Of a DNA stretch of 38,848 nucleotides, positions 25,649 through 36,839 are shown one piece after another (position 1 is the first letter of the stretch; each line of letters opens with the position of its first letter). Position numbers and translations under genes: made by a program. The DNA is taken from the NCBI GenBank assembly GCA_003979155.1, contig RYWL01000012.1, positions 1 to 38,848 on the forward strand, in the 5' to 3' direction. This stretch comes from Muribaculaceae bacterium (GTDB lineage: Bacteria; Bacteroidota; Bacteroidia; Bacteroidales; Muribaculaceae). Under the pieces are notes generated by a model. It did not search any database, was not told the origin of the DNA, and was given only the letters and a program-made list of their open reading frames with translations.

Positions 25649-25975
25649 TCACTCCGGCACGTATATGATGTCGCCGTTTTCGAGTTCGTAGGCCACGCCG
25701 ACTCGTTTTCCTTTGTTTGCCGACTTGTCGTTGTCTTCCGAGGGGGTGTAACGGTTTATTTTTTCGCCTTCTTTTGTGATTATCTCCATATTTTCCTTGC
25801 CGGGATTCTTTACCATTGTAAAATCTTCCTGCGAGAACATTTCTGTCATATTGTAGCGGCTGACCAAAGCCACCATCAGAGCAACAGCAAAGACCATGGC
25901 CACATCAAAGAGGTTGCTCACCACACTCATAGGGTCGCCGTCGTCGCTGCGGCGTAGTAGGGGCCGTCGTCTCAT
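25649..25975 (-). CDS. hmuV: HmuV-like DUF2149 protein
   Basis: 108 aa. One membrane helix near residues 22-43 (LFDVAMVFAVALMVALVS) precedes a small soluble domain matching DUF2149 (NMEIITKEGEKINRYTPSE and GKRVGVAYELENGDIIYVPE). The topology copies ExbD/TolR: short cytoplasmic N-terminus, one helix, periplasmic domain. DUF2149 proteins occur beside MotA/ExbB-like channels and CobN-like proteins in Bacteroidota hmu loci. The start overlaps the hmuU stop by 4 bp (ATGA). I infer it is the ExbD-like partner of HmuU in a proton-driven module. Confidence 0.85.
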   Translation of the reverse strand: MRRRPLLRRSDDGDPMSVVSNLFDVAMVFAVALMVALVSRYNMTEMFSQEDFTMVKNPGKENMEIITKEGEKINRYTPSEDNDKSANKGKRVGVAYELENGDIIYVPE

Positions 25976-26577
25976 TTGCGGCCTCCTTTCTCTTTTTCTA
26001 CAATGTCGGCGAGATACTCGAGAATGGTAAGATTCTTTGCTGCCCAGCGTTCTTTTGTCTGCTGGGTTACAAAACCTATGGCGCTGACTACAAGGCCTAC
26101 CACTGTAGTGGCAAAGGCCACTTGCATATTATATGCCATAGATGCGATATCGCCCGAGGCGAGACCTACCAGAGCCGGACCCATAGGAATCAGTGTGCCC
26201 ATGAGACCCAGAATAGGCCCCATTTTGGTGAGAGTCTTCGATGTGGAGAGTTCCTTGTCGGCCTCGATTTCGTACTCCGAAATCAGCAGGTCGGCTTTCG
26301 AGCGGTCGGCTCCGGCTTCGATTACTTTGCGTATATAGGCTATGAGCACAGAGCCCGATTCCGACGGCAGTTGTTTCTCGAAGTCTGCGAGGGTGTCGGT
26401 GTTGAGGCCGGTGAGTTTCGCATAAATAACGGCTGTGGTCTTTTTCATCTGAAGATATTGGCCGAAAAAGCCTCCAATCATGATGAGCGCACGGATAAAA
26501 AAGAATATGAGTAGAACAATCACCGGTACAAGCAGTCCGGTCGAAATCCAGTAGAGGATATTGGATATGAGATTCAT
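25972..26577 (-). CDS. hmuU: HmuU-like MotA/TolQ/ExbB proton channel protein
   Basis: 201 aa. A hydrophobic N-terminal segment (about 8-36), a cytoplasmic loop, then the hallmark MotA/TolQ/ExbB region: TLTKMGPILGLMGTLIPMGPALVGLA followed by a second helix MQVAFATTVVGLVVSAIGF. ExbB-type pentamers conduct protons and drive partner proteins across the periplasm. Position between HmuT and HmuV matches HmuU of the P. gingivalis hmuYRSTUV operon. The start is 11 nt after hmuT. No canonical exbB/exbD/tonB set is in this window, so this is probably a dedicated motor for the haem system (inference). Confidence 0.9.
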   Translation of the reverse strand: MNLISNILYWISTGLLVPVIVLLIFFFIRALIMIGGFFGQYLQMKKTTAVIYAKLTGLNTDTLADFEKQLPSESGSVLIAYIRKVIEAGADRSKADLLISEYEIEADKELSTSKTLTKMGPILGLMGTLIPMGPALVGLASGDIASMAYNMQVAFATTVVGLVVSAIGFVTQQTKERWAAKNLTILEYLADIVEKEKGGRK

Positions 26578-26588
26578 AGTCGGTCAGT

Positions 26589-27290
26589 TTATAGTTTTTG
26601 TATGTTTCTTGTCTTTCGGTTGGAGATGATTCGGTTGCATAATAGCCCGGCGATAGAAGCAGTGGCAAGGAGTGCCACAACGGCTGCCAAGGCGTCCCAT
26701 TCTACCTTGTTTGTGCCTGCGGCGGCCGTGCGTCCGTTGACTGTGGCGATTATTCCGAGAATGATGATGAGAATATTTACCAGAAACATCAGTTCGATGC
26801 GAATTTCGTTTTCGGGCAGAAGCCATTTGAGAAGCAATGCGAAAAGCGGCACACTTACAAATATAAGCGACGCCGTGCCGAGGGCTATGCTTGCAAAACT
26901 GATGCCCGGAAGCGCAAAAATCAATTGAGTTAGCAAGGCGAAGAGTACGGGAAAGATTACCAGTCCCGGAATCCACCGGCAAATCTGCAGCGCCCTCCGG
27001 GCTTTTCGCGACAAAGAGCCGCAGAGGCCGGCAGCCATGAGTGTGCAGAAACAGATTTGAAATGCCACGTCGACAGTGAGCCATACCGAGATGTCGAGCA
27101 TCAGCGGAGGATTGGCGAGCCAGTCGGCAATCTGTGTCTTCGACTGCGACGATGCTTCTTCGTAAGATAAAAGAATCGCGCCCGCGGCAAGCAAGGCAAG
27201 CGTTATCGCACCCCACAGGCGGTGAAATGTAAGTTTCAGTATAAAACTAAAACCTACAGCCACCATGATTATGAGTACTACCGTTTCCAT
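26589..27290 (-). CDS. hmuT: HmuT-like polytopic membrane protein
   Basis: 233 aa, mostly hydrophobic, with about six membrane helices: near residues 3-22, 26-42, 69-90, 103-128, 134-160 and 164-195, plus one further helix near the C-terminus. I see no catalytic motif. Identity rests on gene order between the CobN-like hmuS and the ExbB-like hmuU, as in hmuYRSTUV. Its ATG overlaps the hmuS stop by one base (TAATG), so it is translationally coupled. Possible roles are a membrane subunit for HmuS, or a channel for released iron or porphyrin; neither is shown by sequence. Confidence 0.75.
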   Translation of the reverse strand: METVVLIIMVAVGFSFILKLTFHRLWGAITLALLAAGAILLSYEEASSQSKTQIADWLANPPLMLDISVWLTVDVAFQICFCTLMAAGLCGSLSRKARRALQICRWIPGLVIFPVLFALLTQLIFALPGISFASIALGTASLIFVSVPLFALLLKWLLPENEIRIELMFLVNILIIILGIIATVNGRTAAAGTNKVEWDALAAVVALLATASIAGLLCNRIISNRKTRNIQKL

Positions 27291-30200
27291 TATTTTTCGG
27301 TATATGTTTTCCTGCGGCGGCGGATGAGAATGAGTAGCCCGGTGACAGCTGCAACAACTGCAAGGGCCACAATGACGCCGTTGATGTTGTTTGTCACAGT
27401 ATCTGTGTTGTTAAGCTCATCGCGCTTCATCACCATACCGTCGTCGGACGATAAGTTTTCGGCACGAACGTGCGCTACAGCCTTATTGTATTTGGCGGCA
27501 GCCTGTTCCGGAGCTTTCGACGCAATGAAATCGCGCAGGCTGGCGTTGTCGCAGACAAAGCCCGAACATGCCGCACCGAATTCGTTCACAATTTCGGTGT
27601 GAAGCTCGGCCAGCGTGGCCACTTGCTCGGGCGATGCATCCCACATGCCTTTTCGCACGGTTTCGAGCATTACGGCAGTCATTTCCTGAATGGCGGCCGG
27701 GTTTACCGTTTTGAAATAGTCCTTGATTCCGAGGCTGTTTTTGTCGGCGACGTAAGTGTCGTATATGTCGTCCCATAGCTCATTGTCAATCGCATCGGGT
27801 TTCATTACGTTCCAGCCGTAGGTGTTGCGAATCACATCGGCAAAAGCCGACGCGTCGCCGGCACCGCCTTTCATCTTCGCCTTTATGTATGCCGGATTGA
27901 GAATTGTAGTGCGGCTTTCGACACCGATTGCCTCTTTCACTTCCTGCATGCGGGCACGGTTGCGATTGCGGTAATCGCTCAGATAAGCGTCGGGGTCTTT
28001 GCCGGTGACATTGCGCACGGCCAGATTCATGCCTCCCATAAATTCATACACATGGTCAAGACTCAGGGCTCCCCAGGTGTTGCTCTGTCGGGGCTGCACC
28101 ACTACATCGGTTCGTGTGAGGGCGGCCTCGAAAGCGTAGTCACGCATTTTCTCCCAGTCTTCTTCGCTACCGTATACCGCGCCCATGTTGTTGATATATG
28201 CCGATGCAATCTCGCTTTCGTTTTCCCAGCGGTCGCCCGCCTCGACCATGCCCTGGATGCCGCTGCCGTAGTTTCCGTTCACACCGCCGAAAACTCGTGC
28301 TGTCGAAAGCTCTCGAGCCTCTTTGGGCGAAACGCCTTTGTCGACGAGATGTCGCTCCGATTCAACCACACCTTCGGTCACATAATTGGGATAGATGTCG
28401 TTGTCTGCTTCAGCCGCCATTTTCACGGCGCGGCTTATGAGGAAAAGACGCGATGCGGCGAGGTCGCGCAACTGTCCGGAGGTCTGCACTACAACATCGA
28501 TTCTCGGACGGCCAAGTTCTTCCGACGGAATGAGTTTAAGGTCGGAGATGCGACCGAATGGGTCGCGGACAGGTTCAACACCGAGCATGTAGAGCACCTG
28601 GGCTATCGTAGCACCTTCTGTTTCGATAAATTCGCTGCTCCAGAGCGTGTAGCTCACTTTGCGCGGAATAGAGTCGCCGTGCTCTTTGCGATACATGGTT
28701 ATTGTATTGTCGGCCAATTCTTTGCCTTTGCTCCATGCCACAGCCGAAGGAGTCTCCTCGGCATTGATGGCATACATGTTACGTCCTGTAGGGAGAATGT
28801 CGGGATTGAGAATTGGGTCTCCTCCCGAAGTGGGAGCTGTGAAGCCACCGTTGAGAGCGTTGACAATCGACGATAATTCGTTTTGCGGACTGTTGCGGAG
28901 CGCGTCGCGGTATGCGCCGATGTTGAGCAGAGCGCGTTCGACTTCCGTTACTGTCATTGCAAATTGACGTTGCTCGTCGGTGATTTCGTCTTTTTTCATG
29001 CCCGGATGCCGTGGCATGGCACTGCGTTTAGCGTCCGACGACTTGCTTTTGATAGCCGCCTCCATTTTTTTAAGCGCTTCTTCGTCGGCACCCATTTTGC
29101 GTGCCATCTCGAGAGCTTTCTCAGACGACACGCCCGGAATCATGCCGTGTTTCTTTGTCGCCGGGCGCTCGGCTATTTTCGATGTTTTCTGCTCACGTGC
29201 AGGCATCATCGAAGCCATGACCATCATACGCGAAAGCATGTCTTTTGAGCCGTCGATAGCCGCCATGATTGTACGGGCGCTGTCGAGTTCGCTGCGCGAT
29301 ATTCCGGCTATGCGGCAGATTGCGTCGTCGTCGATTGAAACGCCCGAATTCACAAGTCGTTTTGCAGTTTCGCGGAGGCTTGCCAGCGAGCCGCCTCTGA
29401 GTGTGTGCAGACTGTAGGCTATAGGGTCGACAGTCATTGCCTCGACAGTGCTTTTTATATGTTCGTCGGAGTAGGGAACTCCCATTACATACAGGGCCCC
29501 GGTGATTTTTTCGTTGGCGAGCTCTTCGGCAAAATTCTCGATACGGGCGATGTCGTCGGGCGTAAAGAGCGCTACACTGTCGATACGCAGCTCGCGGTGA
29601 ATGCCCAACTCGACGGTATATTTCTTCACCATAGCCGCCGTCGAGGCCGAATCGGCCGACGATGTTGCCTGGTTGTAGGCGTTTATCGCGTCGGCGAGGT
29701 TTTTGTACACACCTCGGAGATTGCTCTCTATGAAAGGCGGTGTGAGGTAATTGACAATGCCTGCATAGCTGCGGCGTTTGGCTATCATGCCTTCGCCAAC
29801 ATTGGAGGTAGAGTAGATGTATACATGAGGCATGGTGCCCACGAGGCGGTCGGGCCAGTCGTTGCTGCCGAGTGCCACTTGTTTGCGAGGCGTGAACTCG
29901 AGCGAGCCGTGGGCGCCGAAGTGCATGAGGGCATCGGCTCCAAAGCCGTAGCGAGCCCACAGATATGCGGCGACATAGTTGTGCGGCGGTGCCGATTCGG
30001 TGCCGTGTACAATTTTAAAATCATCGTCGCCCAGGCCGGCGGCCGTCTGTGGAATAAGCACGACGTTGCCGAAACACAGTCGTGCAAGGGCGAGCCGGCC
30101 GTCTTCGTCGGCGAGGCCGTGTCCGGGAAAGCTGCCGTCGACCGTATCGATATCGTCTTTCATCTCTTTCGCAAAAGCATAGGCACACCATTTTTCGTAA

Positions 30201-31516
30201 TCTTCCTTACTGATGATTTCGGGATGGTTTCTAGTTACGAATTCCGCTTTTGCGCCGACAGCATAGCTGTTGAATACTTTGCCGTTTTCGTTAAGCAGTG
30301 CTTCAAATGCGTCGGCATCCGAGGGCAGATTGTCGACTTTGTAGCCCTCCGATTTCAGTCGTTTGAGAAGATTGAAAAGCGACGGAGCCACTTCCATGCC
30401 TTCGGCAATGAGGGCGTTCTGGCCCGGGCCTTTGAAATAAAATACAGCTAATTTTTTGTCGCTGTTAGGTTTGCGTTGTAGCGAAGTGTAGTTGTTCACA
30501 GTAGCTACAAAGTCATTGAGTCGGTCGGGGATTGCTTCGACATAGGGCAAACCGTCGCTGCCGGTGAAATGCGCGAAGAGAGTGTAGGGTCTTATGGCAC
30601 CGTCGATTTCGGGAGTGACGATACTCTGGGATAGAAATCCACCGTTCATGCCCATTTTGTCGGCGAGCCATTCGTCATAGTCTCGGTTGGCGTTGACAGG
30701 AGCGAAGAGTGGTATGTTTTCCGACTCGAGCCAGCGTGTCACCTGGTCGCCCATACGTCCGTGAGCCATGTTGATGACTGCCGACGCGTGTATTGAATCG
30801 GCATGGCCGCCTTTGATTAATGTCTGAATCACGTTGACAGGATAAACAATATTTCCGGTCTGCTCGAGCCTGGCGATTAAACTGTCGGACACCCCCATCC
30901 GGCCCGTGAGAATTATTCGTGGTGCGGAGTCGTTCCATCTGTCAGCTTTTTTGAGCCATGCTTCGTAAGCAGCCACAGAGCCGAAATTGAGGGTTTCGTT
31001 GTCGCCGGGATAATACAGCATCGATGATGCCGAAATTTCAGGGTCGCCCGGGAGTGGGGCGAAAAGTTTCTTGCTGTCGACGAAACGCCGCACGTAGCGC
31101 AGCATGTTGCGGTAGTTGTTGCGGCCGCCCACAAGATACTGGGCAAGAAATTCATTGTCGACCGAGTCTACCGACACAATATGATTGTCGGGGTTTGTAG
31201 CAGCAGTAGTAAGAACCGGGGTGCCGTTTTTAGCGGCTTCTTCGAGTGCATGGCGTTGCTCTGCTGTAATGCGTATGCCCATGCCGTTGACAAACACCAT
31301 GTCGTAGCGGCTTGCTTTTGCAAGCTCGTCGGCCGGCAACTCCTCGAGCTTTACGAAAGAGTTGTCGTTTGCCTTTGCGATTTGTCCGAGGGTGATTGCC
31401 TGATAGTTCACAAAGGCAATGCGTGTAGTCGACGCGAATACCTTCCACAGCACTATGCATGTGCCGATGATAGCCGCGCATGCGGTTGATAATATGATGA
31501 TTTTCTTTTTGCTCAT
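27290..31516 (-). CDS. hmuS: HmuS-like CobN/BchH-family protein, membrane-anchored and periplasmic
   Basis: 1408 aa from the ATG at 31516, one base after the hmuR stop. An open frame runs upstream inside hmuR but has no separate protein character. An N-terminal signal anchor (IIILSTACAAIIGTCIVLW) and a C-terminal helix followed by RRRRK indicate a large periplasmic domain held at both ends. The body is CobN/Mg-chelatase-H type, with the conserved motif MHFGAHGSLEFTP (His532, His536, Glu540). No CobS/CobT or BchI/BchD ATPase is present, and the location differs from cytoplasmic cobaltochelatase. HmuS proteins of Bacteroidota haem loci are reported to take iron out of haem anaerobically and reductively. 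Residues 760-845 form a Met/Lys-rich charged segment. Confidence 0.9.
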   Translation of the reverse strand: MSKKKIIILSTACAAIIGTCIVLWKVFASTTRIAFVNYQAITLGQIAKANDNSFVKLEELPADELAKASRYDMVFVNGMGIRITAEQRHALEEAAKNGTPVLTTAATNPDNHIVSVDSVDNEFLAQYLVGGRNNYRNMLRYVRRFVDSKKLFAPLPGDPEISASSMLYYPGDNETLNFGSVAAYEAWLKKADRWNDSAPRIILTGRMGVSDSLIARLEQTGNIVYPVNVIQTLIKGGHADSIHASAVINMAHGRMGDQVTRWLESENIPLFAPVNANRDYDEWLADKMGMNGGFLSQSIVTPEIDGAIRPYTLFAHFTGSDGLPYVEAIPDRLNDFVATVNNYTSLQRKPNSDKKLAVFYFKGPGQNALIAEGMEVAPSLFNLLKRLKSEGYKVDNLPSDADAFEALLNENGKVFNSYAVGAKAEFVTRNHPEIISKEDYEKWCAYAFAKEMKDDIDTVDGSFPGHGLADEDGRLALARLCFGNVVLIPQTAAGLGDDDFKIVHGTESAPPHNYVAAYLWARYGFGADALMHFGAHGSLEFTPRKQVALGSNDWPDRLVGTMPHVYIYSTSNVGEGMIAKRRSYAGIVNYLTPPFIESNLRGVYKNLADAINAYNQATSSADSASTAAMVKKYTVELGIHRELRIDSVALFTPDDIARIENFAEELANEKITGALYVMGVPYSDEHIKSTVEAMTVDPIAYSLHTLRGGSLASLRETAKRLVNSGVSIDDDAICRIAGISRSELDSARTIMAAIDGSKDMLSRMMVMASMMPAREQKTSKIAERPATKKHGMIPGVSSEKALEMARKMGADEEALKKMEAAIKSKSSDAKRSAMPRHPGMKKDEITDEQRQFAMTVTEVERALLNIGAYRDALRNSPQNELSSIVNALNGGFTAPTSGGDPILNPDILPTGRNMYAINAEETPSAVAWSKGKELADNTITMYRKEHGDSIPRKVSYTLWSSEFIETEGATIAQVLYMLGVEPVRDPFGRISDLKLIPSEELGRPRIDVVVQTSGQLRDLAASRLFLISRAVKMAAEADNDIYPNYVTEGVVESERHLVDKGVSPKEARELSTARVFGGVNGNYGSGIQGMVEAGDRWENESEIASAYINNMGAVYGSEEDWEKMRDYAFEAALTRTDVVVQPRQSNTWGALSLDHVYEFMGGMNLAVRNVTGKDPDAYLSDYRNRNRARMQEVKEAIGVESRTTILNPAYIKAKMKGGAGDASAFADVIRNTYGWNVMKPDAIDNELWDDIYDTYVADKNSLGIKDYFKTVNPAAIQEMTAVMLETVRKGMWDASPEQVATLAELHTEIVNEFGAACSGFVCDNASLRDFIASKAPEQAAAKYNKAVAHVRAENLSSDDGMVMKRDELNNTDTVTNNINGVIVALAVVAAVTGLLILIRRRRKTYTEK

Positions 31517-31517
31517 A

Positions 31518-33653
31518 TCAGTTGAAGAAATCGTTGATGTCGAGTGAAATACCGGCCGACCACGTTGTGCCTGTGGTGGGCGCCGAATTCCAGTAGTAGA
31601 CTTTCGGCTTGTAACCGAACAGATTGTCGATGACGAGGTTGACCCTGATGCCACGCCATACCTGTTGCTGCAGAGTAAATTTCCACAGTGAGTATGCGCC
31701 GTCGGTGTCGTAGTTTGATTGCGGTTTGGCGAGATATCGTCCCGATATGCCGGCATATAATCTGTACACGCTGCAGATTCGCTTGTCGTAATCGATTCTC
31801 CATGTCATAGAGTGAGGACGAGGCTGCGAAAACTGCGAGTCGATTGTGTTGCCGCCGGTGTGGAGGTAGTTGTAGTTCAGTTGCACACCAAGTCCACAGA
31901 CAGCCCGGTATCGTGCCGAGAAATCGAGTCCATATACACGCACGCCGTTTTCATTGCAGTAGACGGCGCCTTCCTCTCGTGTGTCATCGCCGGGATAATC
32001 GGTTGTTGTGATTCGACTGTTGTAGCGGTTGTAATATGCTGTGCCTGTGATGTTGTACGAGCCGGCGAGCAGAGAGCCGCGCAGATTGCCGCTATGTTCG
32101 AGAGAGAGGTTGAAGTTGTGGCTCTTCTCGGGTTTAAGGTCGGAGTTTCCGTAAATCATCTGAATGCCGGCCATGTCGAAATTCATGTACATCTCTTTGA
32201 GCGTTGGTGCTCTGAAACCTCCTGCATACGAAGCTCTTATGGAGAAACGGTCAAGCTTGAACATAGTGGCGAGCCGGGCCGTGAGGGCATTGTTGTCCGA
32301 CTCCGAGAAATAATCGTCGCGGATACTGGCAACAATATTCAGCCACGAAAGTGGATTGTAGTCAAACTGCACGAACACATCGGCCGATGTCTGCGAGTGC
32401 GCGTCGCCGGATACGAACTGATATGTCCTGAGATAGTCGTGCATGTAGTCGCCTCCTGCCGTGAGAGCATTTTTTCCGAAAAAATGAGTATATAGCGCAT
32501 GCACTATATTTTGCCTGTTGCTGTAGTCGTGGTCGTGAGTTCGTTCGCCGCCGGTATACCTCATCTTGTCGTATTGGTCGTAGCTGTACGACAGCTCGAG
32601 CATCTGCTCAGGCTTGATATTCCACACGGCCCGCAGTCCGCCCGAGTAGTCGAGATAGTGGTCGTCGTAGTTCACACGGGTGCTCACGCGGTTGAAATAT
32701 CCGCCGCGGGCAATAAGTCTGAGATTGTTGGCGGCCTGAAAGACGAGACGTTCCTTGACGTTAAGTGAGTTCCCTCCGAAGACATTCTGAATTTTCGACT
32801 CCGTGTCGAAGGCATCGGTTAGTTTCACTGTCTCAGAAGTCGAGTACTGTATGTTGGTATTTGACGAAACTTTGCCTGAATGAAGATTGAGATCGGCTCC
32901 GTGACGCCACTCCTTGCCGAAGCTGCGGTAGCGAGAGTTCACATTGAGCCTCCACGGCATATTGTCCTCGCGAGTTATGATGTTCACGACTCCGCCCACG
33001 GCATTTGCGCCGTATAGGGCAGAAGAGGCTCCTTTTACCACTTCGACGCGTCCTACATTGTCAAGATTGAGGCGGTTGAAATCGACATTGTCCATGGTCT
33101 CACCGGCAAGTCTCTCTCCGTCGACAAGAAAGAGGATAGCCTTGCCGCCGAAGCCGTTCATGTTGAGCGAAGTCTCCTGACTCATTGCATAGCTGAATTC
33201 CAGGCCAGGCAACGCCTCGGTGAGCAAATCCTGTATGTTTGTGGCATCTGCTTTCTTTATATCGTCGGCAGAAATCAGCTGTGTCACCACAGGCACGTCC
33301 TTGAGAGCCTTGGGCGTACGGGTGGCCGTGACCACGACTTCGTTGAGAGCGCTTATGTCCGGTGCGAGAGCCAGCAACTCCACATGTGAGGCATCATGGT
33401 TTTTGAGTATGAATGTATCCTTGATAAACCCTATATAAGAAACCTCTATTTTAGCTGTGTTTTTGTCTACATCGAAGCTGAATTCACCATCGATGCCGGT
33501 TACTGCAGCCCGGCCGTTGTCAAGCGACCTGACAGTCGCTCCCGTTAGGGGGCTGCCCGTCTCATCCACCACTTTGCCCCTAAAGGTATAAGCTGATGAA
33601 ATGAGCGGACAAATCAGCCCCGCAAGGAGTATGGCAGTATATCTTAAGTTCAC
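31518..33653 (-). CDS. hmuR: HmuR-like TonB-dependent haem receptor
   Basis: 711 aa outer-membrane receptor. A signal peptide (about 1-21) is followed by a CarboxypepD_reg-like domain (about 24-105; GKVVDETGSPLTGATV), a plug (about 115-225; VVVTATRTPK, then VEVVKGASSALYGANAVGGVVNI) and a 22-strand barrel ending in aromatic F (DINDFFN). Phe480-Arg-Ala-Pro483 and Asn503-Ser-Asp-Leu506 match the FRAP and NxDL (NPDL-like) signatures of haem/haemoglobin receptors. It transports haem or haem-protein cargo using TonB energy. It lies 13 nt after the calycin-like gene and one base before hmuS, in one operon. Confidence 0.92.
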   Translation of the reverse strand: MNLRYTAILLAGLICPLISSAYTFRGKVVDETGSPLTGATVRSLDNGRAAVTGIDGEFSFDVDKNTAKIEVSYIGFIKDTFILKNHDASHVELLALAPDISALNEVVVTATRTPKALKDVPVVTQLISADDIKKADATNIQDLLTEALPGLEFSYAMSQETSLNMNGFGGKAILFLVDGERLAGETMDNVDFNRLNLDNVGRVEVVKGASSALYGANAVGGVVNIITREDNMPWRLNVNSRYRSFGKEWRHGADLNLHSGKVSSNTNIQYSTSETVKLTDAFDTESKIQNVFGGNSLNVKERLVFQAANNLRLIARGGYFNRVSTRVNYDDHYLDYSGGLRAVWNIKPEQMLELSYSYDQYDKMRYTGGERTHDHDYSNRQNIVHALYTHFFGKNALTAGGDYMHDYLRTYQFVSGDAHSQTSADVFVQFDYNPLSWLNIVASIRDDYFSESDNNALTARLATMFKLDRFSIRASYAGGFRAPTLKEMYMNFDMAGIQMIYGNSDLKPEKSHNFNLSLEHSGNLRGSLLAGSYNITGTAYYNRYNSRITTTDYPGDDTREEGAVYCNENGVRVYGLDFSARYRAVCGLGVQLNYNYLHTGGNTIDSQFSQPRPHSMTWRIDYDKRICSVYRLYAGISGRYLAKPQSNYDTDGAYSLWKFTLQQQVWRGIRVNLVIDNLFGYKPKVYYWNSAPTTGTTWSAGISLDINDFFN

Positions 33654-33666
33654 TGCTATATTGGTT

Positions 33667-34143
33667 TTATTGTTTTGTTGCGGTAGAGGAGCAAATCATC
33701 GGCATGGGCATGGCTCCGTACTGTAGATTGAATTTGATGTCGAGAGTCTTGTCGCTGACAGTGCCCGAAACAGTGCACGTATAAGATTTTCCGCTGTCGG
33801 TCTGGCCGCTGTATTCGGTAGTGGCGAGAGTGCTTATACCGTTCACTTCTGTAACTTTCACGCCAGTAATGGTGATTGAAGGCATTGCCATTGGAGCTTC
33901 GCCGAAAGCGGGAAGTGTGACAGTAACGGTCGCGTCATCGGTGGCGGAGAGGACGAACGAAAGATTTTCGAATGTTGATGCGCTGCCCATTACAGAGCAT
34001 TCCATATCCCCTGCGTATGTGCCTGCAATGGCTTTGGCCGCGGGTACGGCAGGTTCGTCTTCGTTATCGTCGCTGCAGGAAGGAAGTGTAACAAGCGCGA
34101 GTACCGCAATCATGGTTGCGAAAAGGAATTTGATTGGTTTCAT
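33667..34143 (-). CDS. Calycin-like lipoprotein in the HmuY position
   Basis: 158 aa. A lipoprotein signal ends in lipobox LPSC (Cys23), followed by SDDNEDE, an acidic stretch like surface-export signals of Bacteroidota lipoproteins. The mature domain opens with IAGTYAGDMECSV and continues as short beta strands, matching the Calycin_like (lipocalin-type barrel) family of Bacteroidota. Two methionine clusters occur, APMAMP mid-protein and GAMPMPMIC at the end. It sits directly upstream of hmuR (13 nt), where hmuYRSTUV operons carry the haemophore HmuY, but I see no HmuY resemblance. A surface haem-binding role is inferred from position; the fold call is moderately secure. Confidence 0.75.
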   Translation of the reverse strand: MKPIKFLFATMIAVLALVTLPSCSDDNEDEPAVPAAKAIAGTYAGDMECSVMGSASTFENLSFVLSATDDATVTVTLPAFGEAPMAMPSITITGVKVTEVNGISTLATTEYSGQTDSGKSYTCTVSGTVSDKTLDIKFNLQYGAMPMPMICSSTATKQ

Positions 34144-34160
34144 GAGATAATGAATGGTTT

Positions 34161-35669
34161 TTAATTATGTGATTTATGTTTTTTACTTACTATGTAACCC
34201 GATATGAGTATCAGCATTATCAATGTGCCGGAGAGGAATACGAATAGGTCGGAGAACGGCCCCAGAAAGGTGGAATAGCATCGGCCTACGTGCAACTCGA
34301 GAGCAAAATTCCACAGCGACATAGGCTGCTTTTCAATCAGGCTGTAGGATGTCAACGGTTTATCGGCACCACGTACATAATCGAATACGATTGGTTCTTT
34401 TGTGTCGGCAGTATAGCCGCTCACGATATTACCCCCCAGGTCAAACGGACGTTTTTTTGTAAGGTCGATTATTTCATTGGTGAAATAGTCTTTGACGACA
34501 CCGATGTCAGGTTGCCACCTGTAAAGGCCGCTGAACGAGCCGATAAGCCAGTCGCCGTTGTTTCCCTGTTGAAAAACCGTGATTCCCATAGGGCTTACAG
34601 GAGGTGTGGATTTTTTTTGGAAGGCTACAGGGATAGCCGACAAGGAATCGAGACTGAAAAATCCGTCGGAGGTAGAGAGTAGCCACTTATTCCCGTTTTC
34701 GTTCCACCTCAATGCCCGCAGTTTGTCGTGCCATGCGTTGGGACTGTTGAGACTCGAACCCGGCATTGGCTCTGTCTTGGTCATGACGAAAGGAATCATC
34801 AGGGGCGGTCGCAGACAAGTGCCTGTAAATACAATCAGGAATACTATGGGGAGTGTGTAGTAGCCTATTCTGTTATGCCACGAGAAATTCCAACTGAACA
34901 CTTTCGAATCTCTGATTGCGGCCATATGGCGTTTCACTTTCGAGCGGATGTGGTAGGGAAGTATAAAAAGTATGATACCCGATATACTCAGAAATGCGAG
35001 TATGACAGCGATGACGTCCACTATGATTTTTCCTGTAGTCCCAAACAGTTCTCCGCTGTGGAGCTGCCAGATTGTCTTGAAAAGAGATACTTCGTTCTTG
35101 TACCCGTCCGGGGCAGGAAATTCAGACGGACGGAAAGTGCCGTCGGGCGAAAGACGATAGATTTTTGACCTTGTTACCACCACGACGGCGGTGCTGTCGG
35201 GTGTAATACATACATCGGTGAGACGTTCGGAATTGTCAGACAGATCTATGGGGCTCCATTTTCCGTCGTCATATCTGTAGACGCCGTATTGTGCGGCACA
35301 CCACAATTCGCCGTTTTTTGTCCGCACTATATTGCGGATGTTTCTGTTGTCGACACCGTCGGGCAACCCTTGGTTAAAATCAGCAAAGCTGTCGAGGAAG
35401 GTATCGGTAAGCCATGCGCCGCAAGTGCCGAACGCGAGGATGCTGTCGTTGTCGAGGGCGAGGCTTCCTTTTATTATACCATTGTTGCAGTTTCTGATTT
35501 TATAAGACGCCGGCATAATGCTACGGCTTACTTGGGCTCCTCTGAAAACATCCCGGTGATTCAGAATGATTCCGGAGACACAGAATACTAAAGTAAAGAC
35601 AGAAACCAACAGCCCAGCCCATCGGTGAAATAAACTCCAAAAGTGTTTTCTGTTTCTGTGTGGTTTCAT
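34161..35669 (-). CDS. PepSY-type transmembrane protein with propeller-like periplasmic insertions
   Basis: 502 aa, first gene of the hmu operon. Four membrane helices: about 17-37, 213-240, 267-286 and 474-493. The framework is PepSY_TM: HRWAGLLV at His15, a helix ending in NH at His38, WHNRIGYYTLPI before the third helix, and LHVGRCYSTFLGPFSDLFVFLSG at the fourth. The conserved His pairs suggest haem-b coordination and electron transfer across the inner membrane, as proposed for this family. Both large periplasmic loops contain strands like two-component-regulator propeller blades (NGELWCAAQYGVYRYDDGKW; DWLIGSFSGLYRWQPD) instead of clear PepSY domains. The next gene follows after 17 nt. It may reduce haem or iron for HmuS (inference). 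Confidence 0.8.
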   Translation of the reverse strand: MKPHRNRKHFWSLFHRWAGLLVSVFTLVFCVSGIILNHRDVFRGAQVSRSIMPASYKIRNCNNGIIKGSLALDNDSILAFGTCGAWLTDTFLDSFADFNQGLPDGVDNRNIRNIVRTKNGELWCAAQYGVYRYDDGKWSPIDLSDNSERLTDVCITPDSTAVVVVTRSKIYRLSPDGTFRPSEFPAPDGYKNEVSLFKTIWQLHSGELFGTTGKIIVDVIAVILAFLSISGIILFILPYHIRSKVKRHMAAIRDSKVFSWNFSWHNRIGYYTLPIVFLIVFTGTCLRPPLMIPFVMTKTEPMPGSSLNSPNAWHDKLRALRWNENGNKWLLSTSDGFFSLDSLSAIPVAFQKKSTPPVSPMGITVFQQGNNGDWLIGSFSGLYRWQPDIGVVKDYFTNEIIDLTKKRPFDLGGNIVSGYTADTKEPIVFDYVRGADKPLTSYSLIEKQPMSLWNFALELHVGRCYSTFLGPFSDLFVFLSGTLIMLILISGYIVSKKHKSHN

Positions 35670-35685
35670 GTTGTAATTTTTGATG

Positions 35686-35716
35686 CAAAATTACTTTGGC
35701 ACCGATAAGTGGGCAA
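35686..35716 (-). promoter_or_regulatory. Promoter of the hmu operon
   Basis: On the minus strand: TTG at 35714-35716, a 20-nt spacer, and TAATTTTG at 35686-35693, 16 nt before the ATG of the PepSY-type gene. I could not pick out a convincing Fur-type palindrome. The rest of the 169-bp gap to the ZIP gene shows no ORF and no clear terminator. Confidence 0.7.
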
Positions 35717-35838
35717 TACTCAAACCACGTCAAAAAGATGGCGCGAGAATACCGAAAAAAGGCTATTGTTCAGCGCTGTGAAAATGCAGGCTGTCGCCAA
35801 TTATAGTTATGGTCGGGAACCGATACCAAATTATGGCA

Positions 35839-36615
35839 TCATACAAACATCTGGATATAGAGCATGGTCATTACTCCGGCCACGAGGGCGTAAGTGGCGT
35901 GTTTCTCGAACCCGTGGCTGTGCGTTTCTGGAATCATTTCATCGCTTATCACGTAGAGCATGGCGCCTCCGGCCAATGCAGTGAGCGCCGGAAGCAGAGC
36001 CGACGATATATCGCCGATAAAATATCCGGCAACGACCCCGGATACCTCGAGCAGAGCCACTGTGAGCGCTACTCCCAGCACTCGCCACATGCTCACCCCT
36101 ATCATTATAAGGGGTGTGACAACGACCATGCCCTCTGGTATGTTCTGAATGGCTATGGTGATGGCTACAGTATAGGCGTTGGTGAGGTTGTCGCCGTCGA
36201 ATACCACTCCGGCTGCAATACCCTCGGGAAATTTGTGTATGGCTATTGCTATGACGAACAGCAATACGCGATTTATAGAGCGTGAGCTTGCCGTGTGGGG
36301 CTCTTCAATCTCACCGGCCTCGAGGCCCGCTATGTGGTGGAGATGCGGAGTGATGCGGTCGAGCACACCGATAAGAGCCACTCCGAGTGCAACGCCCACC
36401 ACAGATTGCCACCAGCCGCTTCTGCCGGCCATTTCTACCGACGGAACTATAAGACAGACCAGAGCAGCCGTGAGCATCATGCCGGCACAGAATCCGAGAA
36501 AGATGTCGTTCCACTTATGTGGAATACGGCGTACAATCACGCCGGCCAGCGAGCCGACCAAAGAAGCCAGCCCCAGTCCGGCGGCGCATATTAAAAGTTG
36601 TTCCAATACTGTCAT
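35839..36615 (-). CDS. ZIP-family divalent metal transporter (GufA-like)
   Basis: 258 aa, about eight membrane helices. The two metal-site helices are clear: AIHKFPEGIAAGV with His127 and IAIQNIPEGMVVV with Gln157. A Gln in the second motif, rather than His, fits GufA-type bacterial ZIPs rather than classical ZupT. Between helices 3 and 4 is a short loop with His residues (RITPHLHHIAG). ZIP proteins import Zn, Mn or Fe into the cytoplasm. The gene lies upstream of the hmu operon on the same strand, separated by the hmu promoter, and has its own promoter with a leader of about 150 nt. Metal specificity is not readable; context favours iron or manganese only loosely. Confidence 0.92.
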   Translation of the reverse strand: MTVLEQLLICAAGLGLASLVGSLAGVIVRRIPHKWNDIFLGFCAGMMLTAALVCLIVPSVEMAGRSGWWQSVVGVALGVALIGVLDRITPHLHHIAGLEAGEIEEPHTASSRSINRVLLFVIAIAIHKFPEGIAAGVVFDGDNLTNAYTVAITIAIQNIPEGMVVVTPLIMIGVSMWRVLGVALTVALLEVSGVVAGYFIGDISSALLPALTALAGGAMLYVISDEMIPETHSHGFEKHATYALVAGVMTMLYIQMFV

Positions 36616-36772: not shown

Positions 36773-36803
36773 CAAAATTAATGCAGGCCTGTAGTTTGCG
36801 CAA
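36773..36803 (-). promoter_or_regulatory. Promoter for the ZIP transporter gene
   Basis: Minus strand: TTG at 36801-36803, a 20-nt spacer, TAATTTTG at 36773-36780. The expected start site is near 36766, about 150 nt before the ATG. Confidence 0.7.
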
Positions 36804-36839
36804 TACCTAAAAATAATGAACTTTTTGAAATAAAATTTG

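Follow-up and report, generated by a model that had tools for sequence, protein, structure and literature searches.

The locus described here raises the question of how an hmu-type haem-iron operon might capture haem without the haemophore HmuY, and of what a PepSY_TM-type membrane protein encoded at its head might contribute. It belongs to a Muribaculaceae MAG (76% complete) of a gut bacterium, and the window is the whole analyzed stretch of 38,848 nucleotides (contig RYWL01000012.1). A sequence-only reading had described a haem locus in which a calycin lipoprotein had replaced HmuY and a putative electron-transfer protein had been added. We put at roughly 0.5 the probability that the locus is a HmuY-less hmu variant, with a PepSY-calycin-HmuR front joined to an hmuSTUV back, in which the PepSY_TM protein is a putative electron conduit serving HmuS.

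Organization of the operon

Seven minus-strand genes, read earlier as separated by gaps or overlaps of -4 to 17 nt, were all confirmed by ORF and Pfam analysis as an hmu-type operon without HmuY; from the PepSY_TM gene to hmuV, the intergenic distances are 17, 13, 1, -1, 11, and -4 nt.

35686..35719, minus strand: promoter-like motif GTATTG-N20-TAATTTTG, the sole one found heading the operon (pattern scan)
34161..35669, minus strand: PepSY_TM-type membrane protein, 502 aa, four TM helices (Pfam PepSY_TM, 8.6e-31)
33667..34143, minus strand: calycin-like lipoprotein, 158 aa (Pfam Calycin_like, PF13944, 7.8e-20)
31518..33653, minus strand: hmuR-type TonB-dependent receptor, 711 aa, GTG start (Pfam TonB barrel 2e-32, Plug 4.9e-25)
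27290..31516, minus strand: hmuS, CobN-like haem de-chelatase, 1408 aa (Pfam CobN-Mg_chel, 2.8e-290)
26589..27290, minus strand: hmuT, polytopic membrane protein, 233 aa (from its place and homology to HmuT elsewhere)
25972..26577, minus strand: hmuU, MotA/TolQ/ExbB family (Pfam MotA_ExbB, 1.2e-10)
25649..25975, minus strand: hmuV, DUF2149 (Pfam DUF2149, 3.2e-35)

The mechanical ORF of hmuS extends 240 nt upstream of the likely ATG, which is at 31516, 1 nt past hmuR; for HmuT, the Pfam search returned nothing above cut-off. The HmuR-type receptor, HmuT, HmuU, and HmuV stand in canonical hmu order, and because seven further genomes of the family, among 197 searched, have the complete order PepSY-calycin-R-S-T-U-V, the arrangement is not a product of chance.

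Over almost its full length, the window HmuS can be aligned with the B. thetaiotaomicron HmuS of known structure (PDB 9d26); the score is 1715 bits, against 331 bits with CobN. It also keeps equivalents of the B. thetaiotaomicron residues Met79, His254, His538, His1209, and Glu1212. It carries the HFG(T/A)HG and LSLDHxxEFMGG motifs together with the haem-site Met/His, and Met79, His252, His532/His536, and His1155/Glu1158 are present in the window and invariant in the 12 HmuS sequences aligned (residue and motif roles according to the excerpts of PMC12583661). A role with some tetrapyrrole other than haem, for instance cobalamin, is very improbable: a TonB-B12 model does match the receptor (1.1e-39), and cobalamin riboswitches are known at some hmu-like operons without HmuY (PMC10100974, in excerpt), yet the receptor is matched best by the haem model (1.1e-43, though under the curated cut-off of that model), no riboswitch reached the Rfam gathering threshold in the window, HmuS retains its haem-site and catalytic residues along with its much higher score, and the promoter motif is common to feoAB. 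The identification as a haem (hmu) locus was thereby borne out.

A single promoter had been claimed for the seven genes, and the sequence is consistent with this, since one promoter-like motif (35719-35686), which we take to be the -33/-7 promoter type of Bacteroidota, heads the operon. As had been read, the PepSY-type gene lies behind this motif in linkage with the receptor and HmuS genes; neither a separate promoter for the first two genes nor, in related genomes, their unlinking from hmuR was found by sequence. The motif is rare. Of the 77 hmu loci, 32 have it at the first gene, with 39 matches in total in 3.19 Mb (both strands) of those loci, and across six genomes it gave 19 matches, versus 2 for a reversed control pattern. 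In the MAG it is common to the hmu operon, feoAB, and a ZIP gene. Scans for sigma-70-type promoters (13 vs 9.7) and terminators (12 vs 12.0) gave about as many matches as the shuffled background, and a limited literature search found no published Bacteroides iron-regulator motif that matches.

The description of the system as self-contained was too strong. The feoAB genes lie on a contig other than that of the operon, TonB and an electron donor would have to be supplied from elsewhere, and several HmuS-bearing genomes of the family lack a PepSY_TM match at E 0.001 (see below).

Probable loss of HmuY and retention of the calycin

The absence of HmuY, noted at the outset, held up. No match to the HmuY family (PF14064) was found in the operon or in the 76%-complete MAG, so the operon is a variant rather than a member of the canonical hmuYRSTUV group. 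HmuY is likewise absent from 15/15 family genomes with HmuY-less operons (the MAG and 14 relatives), while all five HmuY-positive control genomes gave a match.

The claim that a calycin replaced HmuY was not supported. The lipoprotein encoded before hmuR matches PF13944 only, above cut-off, and 36 of the 53 HmuY-positive, PepSY-negative loci have a calycin gene immediately ahead of hmuY; the calycin is therefore no newcomer and looks like an old neighbor that stayed. Judged from these gene orders, the history is most simply one in which HmuY was lost and the calycin retained. Nor is the single-domain form special to HmuY-less loci, as it also occurs with HmuY (L135, L172, L180, and others).

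The calycin could still be a new haemophore that binds haem through Met and passes it to HmuR. This is possible, and we lean against it. Its lipobox ends at Cys23 and is followed by an acidic stretch, presumably a type of surface-export signal; all 19 calycins of HmuY-less loci carry both an MPM motif and a Met preceded by Pro or Ala; nitrobindins, which bind haem, are among the weak fold matches; and HmuY is missing from the incomplete genome. However, presence beside HmuY in most HmuY-positive loci means that a role of the calycin probably predates the loss of HmuY, and MPM also occurs in the HmuY-positive loci L135, L150, L180, and L191. Nitrobindins match only weakly (TM about 0.4), lipocalins match too, and alignments that include the calycins of HmuY-less loci show no conserved His as a candidate haem ligand. 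The best PDB match is 3rwx (sequence E 1.3e-4, fold E 5e-8), B. fragilis BF2706, which shares the Calycin-like family but is a two-domain protein, unlike the single-domain calycin of the window; 3rwx was also rejected as the B. fragilis hmu calycin, since it matches the hmu calycin of B. fragilis Q1F2 only distantly.

Separate histories of the front and back ends

From 123 HmuS loci, 8 were dropped as near-duplicates (99%), and 38 of the remaining 115 were left out for a missing receptor, a weak HmuS score, or short flanks, which left 77. In the receptor tree, which omits receptor-like ORFs shorter than 500 or longer than 1000 aa (including that of L149), a single clade with support of 100 holds 19 of the 22 HmuY-less receptors, that of the window among them. 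In the window receptor, residues 372-376 read THDHD and fall on a predicted outer loop; the sequence is found in 17/19 receptors of this clade and in 0/63 others.

The HmuS tree tells a different story. Over the 31 loci common to both trees, hand-picked from the 77 (17 HmuY-less and 14 HmuY-bearing), the receptor tree needs one change of HmuY state and the HmuS tree eight. A single HmuY-less clade was rejected for HmuS (AU p 8e-17), a value that leans on the choice of groups, because both the receptor clade and the tested groups were named after the receptor tree had been seen. As far as such trees can tell, the front end (PepSY-calycin-HmuR, with its own receptor clade) and the hmuSTUV back end are shown to have different histories, and from the counts of one and eight changes PepSY-calycin-HmuR appears to behave as a cassette exchanged over hmuSTUV. 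The three genes, ordered PepSY-calycin-R, precede S in nine Muribaculaceae loci; in B. heparinolyticus they follow V.

The PepSY_TM-type protein as accessory and candidate electron conduit

The first gene product scores 108.3 bits against PF03929 (cut-off 28.8). Only this membrane scaffold is recognized; no PepSY domain was matched by Pfam, and the periplasmic part is modeled as a beta-propeller split over both loops (pLDDT-91 model). After removal of duplicates L083 and L087 and of sequences of 400 aa or fewer, His 15, 38, 204, 265, and 460 are invariant in 60/60 aligned sequences. With sidedness taken from charges and the structure model, H15 and H265 are predicted on the inner side and H38, H204, and H460 on the outer side, placed as in di-haem transmembrane reductases. 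The invariance of these five residues makes a role in electron transfer plausible. FoxB was set aside as a fold assignment, not being among the 50 fold matches listed, which beta-propellers dominate.

This gene, described earlier as an addition, is linked to the operon, and we correct its status to that of an accessory. On its own tree, at least three separate branches carry it as a neighbor of hmuS, and other branches as a neighbor of hmuY/hmuR. As an hmu-specific family it was ruled out, since only 9 of 40 fetched loci (drawn from 70 match rows) are hmu-linked, or 12/43 with the window, L112, and L114. By gene order, 31 of the 40 show no hmu linkage, L202 and L212 lying on contigs too short to judge linkage, and some unlinked loci adjoin hemerythrin, hybrid-cluster, or NapC/NirT-type cytochrome genes. 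The gene is not in 7/16 HmuY-less operons of the family. Among ten HmuS-bearing family genomes without it in the operon, seven have no PepSY_TM match at E 0.001, so the protein is not needed everywhere, and one more matches only below cut-off. Co-occurrence scoring, which had been proposed as a check, gave a mixed answer: the PepSY gene is associated with HmuY absence by raw counts (12/2 vs 10/53, where 53 are HmuY-positive and PepSY-negative; Fisher p 1.2e-6), but the association is not significant by independent pairs that take relatedness into account (median p 0.25), and the calycin commonly occurs with hmuY. A strict correlation was accordingly dropped.

This patchiness would suit a passenger gene that encodes some general redox protein, came by drift to lie behind the promoter, and adds little, as would the mostly hmu-unlinked family. 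We nevertheless regard that reading as improbable, given the recurrent positions beside hmuS and hmuY/hmuR, the invariant His, and a gene order kept across genomes whose PepSY-type proteins are only 49-54% identical to that of the window.

A different partner is also conceivable, in that the protein would not serve HmuS directly and would instead reduce iron after its release from haem, or imported ferric chelates, for FeoAB, as XusC and FoxB are thought to do. PepSY_TM proteins of known function reduce ferric siderophores (excerpts of PMC13038864 and PMC13142918), feoAB and hmu have the promoter motif in common, and 8/60 tree sequences are linked to hmuY/hmuR without hmuS; on the other side, the gene directly precedes hmuS in L112, L114, L203, L214, L239, and L240. 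HmuS itself already yields Fe(II) (PMC12583661, in excerpt), and on balance we consider a FeoAB-directed role unlikely.

Proposed working and significance

In the preferred reading, that of a HmuY-less variant with an electron conduit for HmuS, the surface calycin lipoprotein and the receptor, with its clade-specific His on predicted outer loops, would take haem without HmuY, and import would be driven by TonB with HmuU/HmuV. Periplasmic HmuS would then remove Fe(II) from reduced haem. As an inferred step, the PepSY_TM protein would act as a di-haem conduit passing electrons across the membrane from the cytoplasmic side into the periplasm; there they may keep haem or haem iron ferrous for HmuS and FeoAB. 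The physiological (in vivo) electron donor of HmuS is left open in the excerpts of PMC12583661 and PMC13227078, and the PepSY_TM protein, with its gene beside hmuS on several branches and its di-haem signature, may be that route and is a concrete candidate.

A bolder and rather doubtful version holds that PepSY-calycin-HmuR is an exchangeable haemophore-free module, that loop His of the receptor took over capture after a single loss of HmuY, and that the propeller di-haem protein is the electron route of HmuS. Given the cassette exchange, gut Bacteroidales may be able to change haem capture en bloc, without the haemophore HmuY.

Comparison with known systems

The window resembles the canonical hmuYRSTUV of Porphyromonas and Bacteroides in its hmuR-S-T-U-V order and in the key residues and 1408-aa length of HmuS, but it lacks hmuY in operon and MAG, has a receptor of a separate clade, and carries a PepSY_TM-type gene and a single-domain calycin in front. 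According to the excerpts of PMC10100974, HmuY is treated as one diagnostic part of the system, and HmuY-less hmu operons are already known (pattern 011111, 385 species). Genes labeled 'pepSY' and 'cal' were drawn in hmu clusters of some Bacteroidota in 2025 (Figure 1, PMC12106395), so that both extra gene types stand beside hmu genes as in the window, whereas the figure legend and section 3.1 of that paper discuss no function, receptor clade, or exchange. Among the portions of reports covered by our literature search, no other was found to mention both genes with hmu. What appears to be new here, judging from sequence comparison, is the HmuY-less receptor clade with its THDHD loop, the cassette behavior of PepSY-calycin-HmuR, and the recurring promoter.

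XusABC, the xenosiderophore system of B. thetaiotaomicron, also combines a TonB receptor, a surface lipoprotein, and a PepSY-type inner-membrane protein (PMC13142918, in excerpt); XusB-type proteins, however, are DUF4374 proteins for siderophores, whereas in the window the lipoprotein is a calycin, the receptor is of haem type, and a de-chelatase is encoded as well. FoxB and other PepSY_TM di-haem periplasmic reductases differ in that the periplasmic part in the window is modeled as a beta-propeller and has no PepSY-domain match, but they share with the window protein the scaffold, the two-sided His, and a large periplasmic part carried on the helices (PMC13038864, in excerpt).

Identity of the operon and the loci compared

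The sequence-only reading had described seven closely spaced minus-strand genes (25649-35669) encoding a PepSY-type membrane protein, a calycin lipoprotein, a haem-type receptor, HmuS, HmuT, HmuU and HmuV, and the gene calls in the window bear out both the genes and their spacing. Gene families were checked against Pfam and NCBIfam; the probable HmuS start is 31516, and the mechanical ORF start is 31756. The window HmuS aligns with the solved B. thetaiotaomicron HmuS along almost all of its length, scoring 1715 bits, versus at most 403 bits for ChlH and at most 331 bits for CobN. It keeps the equivalents of Met79 and His254 (haem site) and of His538, His1209 and Glu1212 (active site), roles described in the accessible part of PMC12583661, and all five are invariant in 12 diverse HmuS. 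There are strong grounds for identifying this as an hmuRSTUV-type haem-iron operon. The window's MAG (G000, contig 32) comprises 1.76 Mb and is 76% complete, and Muribaculaceae are its nearest named relatives by HmuS among the best 80 of 590 loci from named genomes.

Comparison loci were sought in 197 genomes at family level (30 with an HmuS match), in 148 at order level (11 with a match at 0.001, part of them CobN-like), and in a single scan of named genomes, from which those best 80 loci were retained. Removing near-duplicates reduced 123 HmuS loci to 115, of which 77 had a receptor and sufficient flank. Neighbouring genes were labelled with profiles made for this analysis, the seeds being Pfam-confirmed for five HmuY, the window calycin and two of three two-domain calycins, and the others assigned on profile scores. 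The haemophore gene hmuY occurred without the PepSY-type gene in 53 of the 77 loci, the PepSY-type gene without hmuY in 12, both in two and neither in 10; L149, in which other genes occupy the ~2.7 kb between an upstream PepSY-type gene and hmuS, was scored as without. A second CobN-like group of the same family (L096-L102, ~1300 aa) has different neighbours, namely a 424-aa lipoprotein gene and genes sized like those for a binding protein and an ABC transporter, and perhaps serves another tetrapyrrole.

Exchange of the front end

No match to the HmuY family (PF14064) was found in any of the 15 family genomes whose operons lack HmuY (four are 76-84% complete), or in G343-G346. Five HmuY-positive genomes did match, namely G217, G243, G341, B. 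fragilis (three) and P. endodontalis (one), and these serve as the positive control because the search of 14 further control genomes gave no match. B. heparinolyticus has one HmuY, encoded elsewhere in its genome. In B. fragilis, an HmuY gene adjoins a 507-aa PepSY_TM gene apart from the hmuS locus (G347:C1:771422-773387).

The 19 HmuY-less receptors of calycin type group on a single branch of the receptor tree (support 100), 12 with the PepSY-type gene and seven without; the HmuY-less loci L110 and L130 fall outside it, and the HmuY-less L149 receptor was omitted because of its length. On the HmuS tree, HmuY-less loci of calycin type are interspersed with HmuY-bearing ones. Among 31 hand-picked loci, HmuY state changes once on the receptor tree versus eight times on the HmuS tree, some of these on weak branches, and forcing the HmuY-less HmuS of these loci into one group is 768 log-likelihood units worse (AU p 8e-17). 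Gene order also varies, being S-T-U-V-PepSY-calycin-R in B. heparinolyticus and calycin-R-S-T-U-V-PepSY in two Bacteroidales loci (L176 and L185). Within the loci sampled, there is a strong case that the front end (PepSY-type gene, calycin gene and hmuR) has been exchanged as a module. Since both of the deepest-branching lineages in the receptor clade have the PepSY-type gene, its absence from seven clade loci probably reflects loss.

The accessible text of PMC12106395 already names "pepSY" and "cal" in an hmu figure legend, and that of PMC10100974 counts HmuY-less operons; no prior report of the receptor clade, the front-end exchange or the promoter described below was found in the literature searched, subscription papers and figures being beyond reach.

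Receptor and calycin lipoprotein

Clade receptors carry His at positions 332 (16/19), 373 (18/19), 375 (19/19) and 385 (18/19; numbering of the 711-aa window receptor), positions occupied mostly by Asp or Arg in HmuY-type receptors, and THDHD at residues 372-376 occurs in 17 of 19 clade members versus none of 63 other receptors. Residues 332, 373 and 375 would lie on outer loops, judging from the strand pattern, and the receptor loops may capture haem. A FRAP motif and a nearby NPxL-type motif with Met residues (NSDL in the window receptor) are common to the clade and most HmuY-type receptors.

All 12 PepSY-type loci lacking HmuY contain the calycin gene; in HmuY-only loci it lies directly before hmuY in every instance where present (36/53). 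The protein's lipobox ends at Cys23, and an acidic stretch and then an eight-stranded barrel come after it; its best PDB match is 3rwx, with weaker fold matches to lipocalins, a SusCD-associated lipoprotein and nitrobindins. Met residues are kept, with MPM in 19/19 HmuY-less loci, and the calycin alignment contains no conserved His. The lipoprotein may act with the receptor in taking up haem.

A shared promoter motif

The motif GTATT(G/T)-N18-21-TAA(T/C)TTTG precedes the first gene in 32 of the 77 loci, HmuY-bearing and HmuY-less alike (the strict form was not found in 45), the loci containing just 39 matches in 3.19 Mb over both strands. It is present in 8/9 loci starting with the PepSY-type gene (the exception being L118) and in 6/9 HmuY-less loci starting with the calycin gene. 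Across six genomes, the form with G gave 19 matches versus two for the reversed pattern. Five matches occur in the window's MAG: before the hmu operon, a ZIP gene just upstream, feoAB (L242, G000:C7), a hemerythrin-domain gene (L258, G000:C118) and an ftsX-like gene named by eye from sequence.

35839-36615, minus strand: gene for a ZIP-type metal transporter, immediately upstream of the hmu operon
36773-36806, minus strand: rare hmu-type promoter motif of the ZIP-type gene

This distribution suggests that hmu, feoAB and the hemerythrin-domain gene form one iron-related regulon. A divergent gene of hemerythrin-LuxR type stands beside 13 of 76 other hmu operons scanned (for example, L073:11298-12257 and L091:11621-12571), and its product is a candidate regulator of hmu. 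In some loci, such as L142 and L177, an inverted repeat (TACCC...GGGTA or AATAC...GTATT) upstream of the first gene was seen by eye to overlap the -33 box, and is a possible operator.

The PepSY-type protein

The family search matched the PepSY-type protein in 20 of 197 genomes at 0.001, with 13 strong matches (E 1e-112 or better): eight, the window included, in hmuS loci of identical gene order throughout, three in calycin-HmuY-HmuR-X295-PepSY loci without hmuS, and two elsewhere. The arrangement without adjoining hmuS is seen in L104, L106 and L107, and L201, likewise with no hmuS alongside, has HmuR-HmuY followed by X295 (two hits) and the PepSY-type gene; X295 is a membrane protein of approximately 290 aa, with no Pfam match in L104 and L106. 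At order level, 64/295 genomes had a match at 1e-20, and nine of 40 loci fetched from 70 match rows were hmu-linked. Some non-hmu relatives (L206, L210, L234 and L238) have a redox or nitrogen-oxide context, adjoining hybrid-cluster (prismane), hemerythrin/DUF438/DUF1858 or NapC/NirT-type cytochrome genes. hmuS-linked members occupy at least three separate places in a tree of 60 sequences, in which gains and losses are not distinguishable. A general need for the protein is argued against by seven of the 10 family genomes that carry HmuS but no PepSY-type gene in the operon: they lack any PepSY_TM match at 0.001, and one further genome has a match solely below the cut-off.

The model of the 502-aa window protein (pLDDT 91) has helices at 5-37, 207-246, 252-284 and 463-501, the segment joining helices 1 and 2 forming three four-stranded units and that joining helices 3 and 4 about three, which are less regular; among the matches listed, its fold matches are mostly beta-propellers. 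His15, 38, 204, 265 and 460 are invariant (60/60 sequences), and the model would place His15 and His265 in the inner half of the membrane and His38, His204 and His460 at the outer side, given an N-terminus inside. We infer that the protein may supply electrons, a case worth testing because the HmuS papers, in their accessible parts, leave the electron donor of HmuS open. The predicted His placement agrees with that of FoxB as described in the accessible part of PMC13038864.
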